The notes under the pieces: generated by a model
Databases searched by the model: none
What the model saw: only the letters and a program-made list of their open reading frames with translations
What the model was told of the DNA's origin: nothing
Program-made: the position numbers and the translations under genes
IMG/VR virus record: IMGVR_UViG_3300049489_000295
Location: 1 to 35,783 of that record
Origin: a virus
Strand: one strand, 5' to 3'
DNA: 35,783 nt
Shown: positions 30,736-34,280 of the stretch, piece by piece
Layout of the letters: each line of letters begins with the position of its first letter
Numbering within the stretch: the first letter of the stretch is position 1

Positions 30736-31719
30736 ATGTCCGAGGGCTACGAGTTCTACCTCAGCCGCCTGTCCGACGAGACCGAGGAGCCCTCGGTAAC
30801 TCGGGGAGCGAGCGGCTACTTCTCTGCGCCGAGCACGCGCCTGGACCCACACCTATTCCACGGTGACTCGCTGCGCGGAGACGTCAAGGATTGGATCCTG
30901 GAGACGCTGTACGACTTCTGGCAGAAGTACTACAAGAACCCCCAGCGTTGGAGCACGGCCTGGCTGGCAGGCTCTGGGATCTCGTACCAGTGGGAGGCTT
31001 CGCGTGGCAACGGGGACCTCGACGTCCTGATCGGTGTCGACTTCCCGGAGTTCTACCGACTCAACCCTGCCTGGCAGGGGACGCCGGAGGACGACATGGC
31101 CGACATCTTCAACAAGACGTTCAAGGACCTGCTTTGGACGCGCACGGCGGAGACGAACCTCAACGGCCAGGTGTACGAGGTCACGTTCTACGTAAACCCG
31201 AACTCGACCGACATCCGCGACATCAACCCGTACGCCGCCTACGACCTCAACCACAACTCCTGGACGGTACGCCCGCCGGTCCTGCCCGAGAACCCGCGCT
31301 CGCAGTACCCGAAGGAGTACTGGGCCGCTGTGGCGCGCGAGAGGGCCGTCGCCCGGCGTCTGGTCGAACGGTACATGACGGCCAAGAACGACCGCGACGC
31401 GGCTGCTGACGGCTCTCCCGGACACGTCAACGCGCTGGCGCGTATGCGGACTGTGGTCGATCAGGCGAGCAGCCTCTTCAACGACATCCACCTCGGGCGC
31501 CGCAACGCTTTCAAGCCCGGCGGCTCCGGCTACGGGGACTTCTACAACTTCCGCTGGCAGGCGCACAAGGAGTCCGGGGCCGTGCAGGCGCTCCACACCC
31601 TGACGTCGCTCAACGTCGAGGCCAGGCAGGCCGAGGAGATCGCCCGCCATGGCGCTCCGATCGATGACGCGCACACGGCTCTGTCCAAGGCCGCCCAGTG
31701 GAGCAAGGGCCTGGTCTGA
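30736..31719 (+). CDS. nucleotidyltransferase-fold protein
   Basis: The 327-residue product starts at ATG 30736; a longer in-frame start at 30574 lies in the previous gene and has no support. It contains Gly79-Ser80...Gly-Asp-Leu-Asp (Asp94-x-Asp96), the Gly-Ser and Asp-x-Asp motif of the nucleotidyltransferase superfamily, in a predicted alpha/beta domain (about 55-150). Substrate is unknown: it could modify a tRNA, a protein or an antibiotic-like molecule. An in-frame Leu-His-Thr near its end is encoded CTCCACACC, not by the CTTCATACC word. Confidence 0.7.
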   Translation: MSEGYEFYLSRLSDETEEPSVTRGASGYFSAPSTRLDPHLFHGDSLRGDVKDWILETLYDFWQKYYKNPQRWSTAWLAGSGISYQWEASRGNGDLDVLIGVDFPEFYRLNPAWQGTPEDDMADIFNKTFKDLLWTRTAETNLNGQVYEVTFYVNPNSTDIRDINPYAAYDLNHNSWTVRPPVLPENPRSQYPKEYWAAVARERAVARRLVERYMTAKNDRDAAADGSPGHVNALARMRTVVDQASSLFNDIHLGRRNAFKPGGSGYGDFYNFRWQAHKESGAVQALHTLTSLNVEARQAEEIARHGAPIDDAHTALSKAAQWSKGLV

Positions 31720-32210
31720 TGCCAACCGTCGTGGCGATCACGATCGAGGGAGTGCTCCAGCAGGTCGTCGGAGACGCCCCGATCCCGACAGGCAAGCACC
31801 TCTACGAGGGGCTGTCGAACGTCGCAGGCATCGCCCTGATCACCGACCAGGACCCCGAGGTCGTGAATCGCTGGCTGGGCCTGAACGGCTTCGACAAGCA
31901 CGCCTTCATCGTCCCCCGAGACGTCATTGACCCGGAGGACTTGGCCGAGCGCCGGGCACTCCAGGTGCGCCGCCTGCGGTCCTACGGGGCCGACGTGGGG
32001 CTCGTGATCGACTCTGACCCGATGGCCGTCCGCGCACTCTTCCGCGACGGTGTGGCCGCCTCCCTGTACCTCAGCCCCGTCTACAGCCGCCCGGAGCACC
32101 GGCCCGACTACGACGGCGAGGTGCGGCCCTGGGACGACCTGGTGGCTGAGATCGAGCGAGCACGAGAACTGCGCGCGTCCGACGACCGGCCGCGCAAGGA
32201 AGCACTGTGA
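31719..32210 (+). CDS. degenerate HAD-like protein
   Basis: The 163-residue product starts at ATG 31719. It begins with a Val-Val-Ala-Ile-Thr-Ile-Glu-Gly-Val-Leu strand where HAD hydrolases have Asp-x-Asp-Gly; both Asp are replaced (Thr and Glu). A Leu-Ile-Thr-Asp segment (near 45) and a Val-Ile-Asp-Ser-Asp-Pro segment (near 95) match motif II and IV positions, so the fold looks HAD-like but without the nucleophile. It is probably non-catalytic or a changed enzyme. Overlaps its upstream neighbour by one base. Confidence 0.55.
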   Translation: MPTVVAITIEGVLQQVVGDAPIPTGKHLYEGLSNVAGIALITDQDPEVVNRWLGLNGFDKHAFIVPRDVIDPEDLAERRALQVRRLRSYGADVGLVIDSDPMAVRALFRDGVAASLYLSPVYSRPEHRPDYDGEVRPWDDLVAEIERARELRASDDRPRKEAL

Positions 32211-32233: not shown

Positions 32234-33748
32234 ATGCTGATCTACTTCGGTGGCGCCGAGATCCCGGGCCACCGCAACCTGCTGTCCTCCGCAGGCGTGG
32301 AAGCGATGGCGCTGTCCTACATGGGGCTGCGCCGACGCGTGAAGTTCGCCCGCCCGTGGATCATCGCCGAGAAGTTCCCGGCCTCGGCCGACGTCTTCCT
32401 CGACTCCGGCGCGCACACGGTGAACAAGGCCGACGAGGACAAGTACAGCCAGGCCGAGTTGCTCGACATCGCCGCGCACTACCGCGAGTTCGTGGCCCAG
32501 AACATCGACCGGCTGGCGATGGTCAGCGAGTTCGATGCCATCCCTCTGGGGCTCGACTGGATCCGCCAGGAGCGCGAGGAGTTCTGGTCCCAGATCCCCG
32601 AGGACAAGTTCCTGCCGATCTGGCACCCCGAGTTCGGGTTGGAGGAACTCGACAACCTCGCGCGCACGTACGACCGCGTCGGAGTGCCCTCCACCGACCT
32701 CCAGGGACGCAATCTCATTCCCGCCCTGAATGGTCTCGTGCAGCAATACGGGGTGAAACTCCACGGCGTCAACATGTCGAAAGTCGATGACATGTCGGCG
32801 GTGAAGTGGGACTCAATCTCGACCATCTCGTGGATCTCTCCGAGCCAGTACGGCGACACGATTATCTGGACCGGCAAGGAGTTGAAGCGGTACCCGAAGA
32901 AGTACAAGGAGCAGTCCAGGAAGCGCTGGCGGACGCACTTCACGAGCAACGGCTTCGACGCCGACCTCATCGCTCAGGACGACACCAACGAGGTCCTCCG
33001 GCTGTCGGTCTGGTCGTGGCTGCAACTGGCTCAGAACCTCGATCGGATGCGTCCGGACGGCCGGGTAGTAACTAAAGGGGCCGAAGTGCTTGATGGCGAT
33101 TTCGCGCAAACAGGGGGGTCGGAAGTTGATACCCTGCCCGATTCCGACGACAAGAACCTACCAACTCTGAGGCTCCGAGATGAGTCCGAGAGGGCTATCC
33201 TGCCGGTCCTCGGGCTGGAGCCGGTCAAGGGTGTCTCGATCAACCCGCAGTCGGGCGAGAACGAGGAGCGAGACATCCTCCACGTCCGCACCCGGAGCCA
33301 GTCGATGCGGATCTGCCGGTCCTGCTTCCTCGCTGCCAAGTGCCCGGCGTACGACGCGAGTAGTAACTGCGCGTACGACATCCCGGTCGAGATCAAGTCC
33401 AAGGACCAGTTCCGGTCAGTAGTTGATGCCCTCACCGAGATGCAGACACAAAGGGTGCTGTTCATGAAGATGGCTGAGGATTTGGAGGGCGGTTACGCCG
33501 ATCCGAACCTAAGTAACGAGATGGACCGACTCAACAAGATGCTGAAGACGAAGGCCGAGATGGAGCAGGAAGGCTTCTCGCTGAAGATCGAAGCGAAGGA
33601 GCGCGGACAGATGGGCATGATCTCGCGGCTCTTCGGCAAGGACGCAGGGGAGTCCGCACGCGCGCTACCTGCCCCGGTGGGGGTCGAGGACCTCTCGGAG
33701 GAGATCGGATTCATCGACGCGGAGGTCGTGGAGGGCCAGATTGAGTAG
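32234..33748 (+). CDS. tRNA-guanine-transglycosylase-like (DpdA-like) fusion protein
   Basis: The 504-residue protein starts at ATG 32234, but no clear ribosome-binding site is seen beyond a GGAG at 32220. The N-terminal part (about 1-260) reads like a TIM barrel of the tRNA-guanine transglycosylase group: Leu56-Asp-Ser-Gly-Ala, Phe100-Asp-Ala-Ile-Pro, Gly-Val-Lys-Leu-His-Gly near 173-178 and Trp192-Asp-Ser-Ile-Ser-Thr-Ile-Ser-Trp. A cysteine cluster follows (Cys361-x2-Cys364-x5-Cys370-x8-Cys379), then a long helical C-terminus. The family link is by motif pattern. If true, it could modify DNA or tRNA bases; a terminase-like role of the C-terminus cannot be excluded. Confidence 0.6.
   Translation: MLIYFGGAEIPGHRNLLSSAGVEAMALSYMGLRRRVKFARPWIIAEKFPASADVFLDSGAHTVNKADEDKYSQAELLDIAAHYREFVAQNIDRLAMVSEFDAIPLGLDWIRQEREEFWSQIPEDKFLPIWHPEFGLEELDNLARTYDRVGVPSTDLQGRNLIPALNGLVQQYGVKLHGVNMSKVDDMSAVKWDSISTISWISPSQYGDTIIWTGKELKRYPKKYKEQSRKRWRTHFTSNGFDADLIAQDDTNEVLRLSVWSWLQLAQNLDRMRPDGRVVTKGAEVLDGDFAQTGGSEVDTLPDSDDKNLPTLRLRDESERAILPVLGLEPVKGVSINPQSGENEERDILHVRTRSQSMRICRSCFLAAKCPAYDASSNCAYDIPVEIKSKDQFRSVVDALTEMQTQRVLFMKMAEDLEGGYADPNLSNEMDRLNKMLKTKAEMEQEGFSLKIEAKERGQMGMISRLFGKDAGESARALPAPVGVEDLSEEIGFIDAEVVEGQIE
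33065..33073 (+). repeat. GTAGTAACT word, copy 1
   Basis: Reads Val-Val-Thr in the fusion-protein frame. Further copies lie at 33360-33368 (different frame) and 33745-33753 (at the stop of the same gene). Confidence 0.6.
33360..33368 (+). repeat. GTAGTAACT word, copy 2
   Basis: In the fusion-protein gene, in a different reading frame from copy 1, so protein conservation does not explain it. Confidence 0.6.
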
Positions 33749-33908: not shown

Positions 33909-34280
33909 ATGCCCAAGCCCGTTCGGAACACGATCATCAGGGCGATTGTGTTCGAGCGGGCCAAGGGATTCTGCGAGCGATGTCGCTGTCGAATCTCGAA
34001 GGGATCTCACACCTATCACCACCGCTTTCCGCAGAGGAATGGTGGGGTCGATTCCGTAGCGAATCTCCTCTACCTCTGCCTGCCTTGTCACCAGGACATT
34101 CACCGCGATGAGGACTACGCGTTCTTCAAGGGATGGATGGCCGGGGAGCACTTCGATCTGACGCCGGTCTGGATCCAACGGGACTGGTGGGCCTTGTTGG
34201 ATCCCTACGGTGGGTACGAGTCGATGCCGACGCTCGACGCGCTCGACCTGCTCGCCTGGCTCCGGGCCGAGGCGGCCTGA
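33909..34280 (+). CDS. HNH endonuclease
   Basis: The 123-residue product starts at ATG 33909. It has Cys22-x2-Cys25, His37-His38 followed by Arg, Asn52 and Cys57-x2-Cys60-His61...His65, the layout of zinc-containing HNH nucleases. HNH proteins next to packaging genes help terminase in many phages; no terminase is visible here, so homing or host-DNA cleavage are alternatives. It is the last gene before the RNA region. Confidence 0.85.
   Translation: MPKPVRNTIIRAIVFERAKGFCERCRCRISKGSHTYHHRFPQRNGGVDSVANLLYLCLPCHQDIHRDEDYAFFKGWMAGEHFDLTPVWIQRDWWALLDPYGGYESMPTLDALDLLAWLRAEAA

Follow-up and report, generated by a model that had tools for sequence, protein, structure and literature searches.

Does a phage gene whose relatives are filed as tRNA-guanine transglycosylases (TGTs) or as their phage counterparts, the DpdA proteins, still encode an enzyme that exchanges bases in nucleic acid? 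The question is raised by an open reading frame in the 35,783-nt stretch of viral DNA analyzed here (IMG/VR record IMGVR_UViG_3300049489_000295, hereafter the window), which runs from an ATG to a stop codon at 32234-33748 on the plus strand, encodes 504 amino acids and starts 23 bases past the end of the upstream gene. Full-length relatives with 33-60% identity were found in 40 IMG/VR contigs and also in the Streptomyces phages BRock, GiJojo, LuckySocke, Alone3 and pSt2308, and the gene occurs in fused form in three actinobacterial genome contigs (Terracoccus, Saccharothrix and Nonomuraea). The GenBank names of the Streptomyces-phage orthologs are "queuine tRNA-ribosyltransferase", "dpdA-like tRNA-guanine transglycosylase" or hypothetical protein, and a literature search found no paper on the Streptomyces-phage fused protein. 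The gene and its parts are as follows.

32234..33748, plus strand: fused protein, consisting of a DpdA/TGT-like barrel, a linker and a Cys4/helical domain (PHROG 887; 48 aligned family members)
32234..33043, plus strand: predicted TGT-type (beta/alpha)8 barrel, residues 1-270 (AlphaFold2, pLDDT about 90, eight strands)
33044..33289, plus strand: variable linker, residues 271-352, that ends in a predicted beta hairpin (low pLDDT)
33314..33370, plus strand: Cys cluster C-x2-C-x5-C-x8-C, residues 361-379, a predicted metal or Fe-S site
33401..33571, plus strand: helical hairpin, residues 390-446 (AlphaFold2 helices, moderate confidence)

The median dN/dS was 0.12 for the barrel, 0.21 for the C-terminal domain and 0.58 for the linker (residues 275-349). 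Given the full-length relatives and the low dN/dS values, the frame is a real gene and not a chance frame, and both its barrel and its C-terminal domain are under purifying selection. Relatives of the C-terminal domain were also detected on contigs of Terracoccus, Saccharothrix, Nonomuraea and Streptomyces genomes (L066-L069), the first three with the fused barrel and the last (L069) as a C-terminal frame alone. Their presence in bacterial genome contigs suggests that relatives may persist as prophages.

According to the structural model, residues 1-270 form a TGT-fold barrel of the phage DpdA family. The AlphaFold2 model, built on 29 aligned homologs, had a mean pLDDT of 70.8 and a pTM of 0.55 over the whole protein, with residues 1-270 confident and the remainder weak. 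The best 50 PDB matches listed for it were all TGTs, human, archaeal, Zymomonas and Thermotoga structures among them, with Z values of 16.5-17.3 over 266-285 aligned residues. Foldseek alone returned generic TIM barrels with low TM-scores; VIA realignment of the Foldseek candidates put the TGTs first. PHROG 887 matched residues 1-500 of the fused protein (E=1.7e-77) and also includes the DpdA of Enterobacteria phage 9g (2e-98), whose activity in inserting into DNA has been described (PMC6884629). Comparison of the profile of the fused family with that of 14 diverse phage DpdA-type proteins gave a probability of 99.6%. Nothing useful was returned by a PDB search with the single sequence or by PDB profile searches with the full-length protein and with its C-terminal domain, and Pfam and NCBIfam yielded no significant family; PF08010 was rejected as a weak match (E=0.013) that falls short of the cut-off for that family. 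The original prediction, made from the order of short motifs, had proposed a TGT/DpdA-like TIM barrel and suggested structure prediction and comparison with TGTs as a check; the barrel was recovered in this way, and the motifs are present in the proposed order (D57-S-G, F100-D101-A-I-P, L176-H177-G178 and W192-D-S-I-S-T-I-S-W200). We file the protein in the TGT/DpdA superfamily by descent, and not as an active DpdA.

Two carboxylates take part in TGT catalysis, Asp280 by bonding covalently to the ribose and Asp102 as the second catalytic residue (PMC6165067). The corresponding and neighboring pocket positions in the fused protein are encoded at the following sites.

32402..32404, plus strand: Asp57 codon, equivalent of TGT Asp102 (Asp in 47/48 family members and 14/14 DpdA-type proteins)
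32528..32536, plus strand: Glu99-Phe100-Asp101 codons, with the base-binding Asp101 and the family-specific Glu99
32762..32764, plus strand: His177 codon, the conserved His of the DpdA family, His196 in 9g (His in 48/48 and 14/14)
32819..32821, plus strand: Ser196 codon, at the position of the TGT nucleophile Asp280

We aligned 48 members of the fused family (the window protein and 47 relatives, comprising 42 distinct barrels), without gaps at the nucleophile position, and found Ala at that position in 27, Ser in 21 and Asp in none, whereas all 14 of the other phage DpdA-type proteins compared have Asp there. The sequence of the last barrel strand is W-Y-S-C-D-S-S-S-W in the 9g DpdA but W-D-S-I-S-T-I-S-W in the window protein and W-x-S-V-[A/S]-S-T-S-W in most of its relatives, and the DpdA-type strand pattern containing the nucleophile (C/V/A/T-D-S-x-x-W) occurs in 0/48 fused-family proteins, compared with all 14 of the DpdA-type proteins. 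The 48-member alignment has no further invariably acidic column from residue 176 to residue 214, and the loss of the nucleophile is therefore independent of the alignment register. Two substitutes within the strand were considered and rejected: Ser196 itself, since Ala is so common at that site, and Asp193 as a shifted nucleophile, this residue being D, T, E, Y, N, A, R, S or G among the relatives. The Trp-Asp-Ser motif highlighted by the original prediction thus exists, but its Asp is not conserved and the residue that occupies the nucleophile position, Ser196, is not acidic. With Asp replaced by Ser or Ala, the covalent intermediate between enzyme and nucleic acid cannot form in the usual TGT way, and the database entries that name the fused protein a transglycosylase are likely wrong.

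Apart from the nucleophile, the pocket shows no decay. D57, D101, H177, S194, S197 and W200 are each kept in 47 or 48 of the 48 proteins, the window protein itself having Thr at 197, and the base-binding Asp101 is present throughout both the fused family (48/48) and the DpdA-type proteins (14/14). Glu99, two positions ahead of Asp101, separates the two groups, occurring in 48/48 of the former and 0/14 of the latter. The pocket is not strictly kept everywhere, as a deeply branching relative with 33% identity (L044) has lost D57, with E99, D101, H177 and the Cys cluster retained.

We looked for deazaguanine pathway genes in 23 records, 20 of them carrying the fused protein (101-117 kb each) and three of them from Bacteroides phages in which the two domains are split between genes. 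QueC, QueD and QueE were all present in 3/3 split-type records, and none of them was detected in the 20 fused-type genomes. Neither QueC nor QueE was found in the window, which is a genome fragment; the original observation that the window contains no deazaguanine-synthesis genes is correct and extends to these 20 related genomes. PHROG 887 matched exactly one place in each fused-type genome, and on these grounds we rejected the idea that each genome encodes an additional, active DpdA, analogous to the pairing of QTRT1 with QTRT2. We also considered potential hosts. In the genus of Streptomyces sp. ISL-96, TGT was found in 0/61 genomes and QueC passed the cut-off in 9/61, and TGT is likewise absent from the four bacterial genomes in which family members occur. 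These numbers make salvage of host deazaguanine unlikely in most hosts. The idea that the protein works as a DpdA inserting deazaguanine is consequently not upheld, as the nucleophile is missing from the entire family and the pathway is missing from the phages and from most Streptomyces genomes.

The C-terminal half of the protein agrees with the Cys-x2-Cys-x5-Cys-x8-Cys cluster and helical tail originally described, the helices being present in the model. C361, C364, C370 and C379 occur without exception in 29 fused members as well as in the separate partner proteins of the split Bacteroides-phage systems, and the helical hairpin contains the invariant residues Q404, R407, E415, D423, E429, D431 and R432. 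When modeled alone, the C-terminal domain had a mean pLDDT of 59.5 and matched only generic helical hairpins with Z under 8, and for these reasons we claim no fold for it. The fusion had been called unusual; within this group it is the rule, as every viral relative found with the fused-family type of barrel carries it. In Bacteroides phages, the Cys4/helical domain is encoded by a separate gene directly behind a DpdA-like barrel with an intact nucleophile Asp, in a row with QueC upstream and QueE downstream (L016:10154-14168, L049:1866-5324 and L058:5211-9055). This separate Cys4 protein is an apparently undescribed candidate partner of DpdA. In a maximum-likelihood tree of the barrels, rooted at the midpoint and containing some long branches, the split barrels adjoin the fused clade (100/99), which is itself monophyletic (100/98) and apart from other DpdA proteins. 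The QueC-barrel-Cys4-QueE row is unannotated in the record of phage BS162P1. We also observed that a gut-phage DpdA-like barrel (L048:3518-5716, MT835482.1) is split by an intein-like insert that starts with S-V-G-Y-D-S, ends with V-V-V-H-N and sits inside the nucleophile motif D-S/T-T-W.

Two upstream neighbors accompany the fused gene.

30736..31719, plus strand: protein with a nucleotidyltransferase-like motif (AGSG...GDLD), found at 38/46 fused loci
31698..32210, plus strand: small HAD-like-looking protein, with a relative within 3 kb upstream at 44/46 fused loci

This association persists even in L044, and neither neighbor was seen at the split Bacteroides-phage loci. G82, S83, G84, D97, L98 and D99 of the nucleotidyltransferase-like protein are invariant in 15 homologs, and the HAD-like-looking protein lacks the DxD nucleophile motif. 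The former had no reliable Pfam or PDB match, and PDB profile searches with both upstream genes revealed no reliable relative; the two assignments are putative and based on motifs only. An HNH endonuclease gene lies just downstream of the fused gene (window 33909-34280; Pfam HNH, 5.7e-07). Among the other loci, only L035 has a relative of it nearby, which suggests a possible mobile insertion.

We consider it somewhat more likely than not, at roughly 0.55, that the fused protein is non-catalytic and serves to bind guanine, or a nucleotide of it, with its Cys4/helical domain acting as a binding arm. The fold, ancestry, loss of the nucleophile, absence of the pathway, fusion, conserved neighbors and purifying selection are shown by the data above, whereas binding to base and nucleic acid, lack of catalysis and the part played by the C-terminal domain are inferred. 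In the simplest history, its ancestor would have been a phage DpdA-type transglycosylase whose Cys-cluster/helical partner was a separate protein. Later, in the actinophage line, the partner would have been fused to the barrel, the nucleophile Asp replaced by Ser or Ala, and the preQ0 synthesis genes lost, while the guanine pocket (D57, D101, H177 and W200) was kept and the invariant Glu99 added. The present barrel would then hold guanine (or a guanine nucleotide) within nucleic acid but leave it in place, the Cys4/helical domain may contact nucleic acid or a partner, and the protein may act within its conserved gene row together with the nucleotidyltransferase-like protein. Alternatively, with Asp57 retained and Glu99 newly invariant, the fused protein could still be an enzyme. 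Glu99 and Asp57 may together replace the lost nucleophile, such that the N-glycosidic bond of guanine is still cleaved or exchanged, for example by a guanine-specific glycosylase or nucleoside hydrolase that does without the classical Asp-linked intermediate. The restriction of Glu99 to the fused family, where it is universal, the near-universal Asp57 and the strong purifying selection on the barrel would all fit such an enzyme. However, Glu99 lies on a different strand from the lost Asp, L044 keeps Glu99 without Asp57, and we know of no precedent for a relocated carboxylate in the TGT superfamily, and we regard this possibility, although the leading alternative, as doubtful. The fuller version of it, a rebuilt TGT active site in which Glu99 and Asp57 catalyze another type of reaction on guanine, either within nucleic acid or in nucleotides, with help from the Cys4 domain (possibly an Fe-S one) and from the nucleotidyltransferase-like neighbor, is put forward just as tentatively.

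The barrel could also be only a scaffold, a structural remnant carried along by a Cys4/helical domain that does the work. This would be consistent with conservation of the Cys4 cluster in both fused and split forms and with the degraded active site but intact Cys cluster of L044. Nevertheless, the barrel is the slower-evolving of the two parts (dN/dS 0.12 vs 0.21 for the C-terminal domain) and keeps polar pocket residues beyond what folding alone demands, which makes a mere remnant improbable. Least probable of all is an ordinary DpdA or TGT that salvages a 7-deazaguanine from the host and exchanges it for a base in tRNA or in the DNA of the phage. Membership in the DpdA family, the TGT fold and the GenBank names argue for it, and preQ0 synthesis genes are common but not obligatory in DpdA phages, singleton DpdA genes without synthesis genes being known (PMC6884629). 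Against it stand the absence of the nucleophile Asp from 48/48 proteins, the absence of the pathway from 20 phage genomes and the Streptomyces counts for TGT and QueC given above, and we consider it very improbable.

Public databases list a whole actinophage clade under queuine or DpdA transglycosylases even though it lacks, throughout, the residue defining their chemistry, and predictions of deazaguanine in the DNA of actinophages carrying the fused protein are for this reason unsafe. This clade resembles a DpdA enzyme that was repurposed once its pathway had been lost, and the split Bacteroides-phage version points to a Cys-cluster partner of DpdA systems, of which we found no description.

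These conclusions can be set against several known systems. BRock gp36 and GiJojo gp181 are full-length orthologs of the window protein, 48% identical to it and with the same upstream neighbors, and differ from it only in being annotated as a queuine tRNA-ribosyltransferase or a dpdA-like transglycosylase. The 9g-type DpdA shares with the fused family PHROG 887, the barrel, Asp57, Asp101, His131, His177 and, in the last strand, the S-x-x-S-x-x-W frame; the fused family differs in the replacement of the nucleophile Asp by Ser or Ala, the gain of Glu99, the extra Cys4/helical domain and a genome without preQ0 genes. The equivalent of 9g His196 separates DpdA from DpdA2 (PMC6884629), and DpdA2 of Vibrio phage nt-1, compared here by its description only, lacks it, whereas the fused family has His177 in 48/48. 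Eukaryotic QTRT2 offers a parallel as a TGT barrel that was retained after losing its catalytic residues; its nucleophile position is Glu, its second Asp is replaced by Cys, its pocket is degenerate, and its partner is the active QTRT1 (PMC6165067). Unlike QTRT2, the fused family has kept its pocket and has no second member in any of the 20 genomes. Finally, the split Bacteroides-phage system (BS162P1, L048, L049, L057 and L058) has the same two domains as the fused family, with barrels that form its sister group, but encodes them in two adjacent genes, retains the nucleophile Asp and is accompanied by QueC and QueE, with QueD elsewhere.
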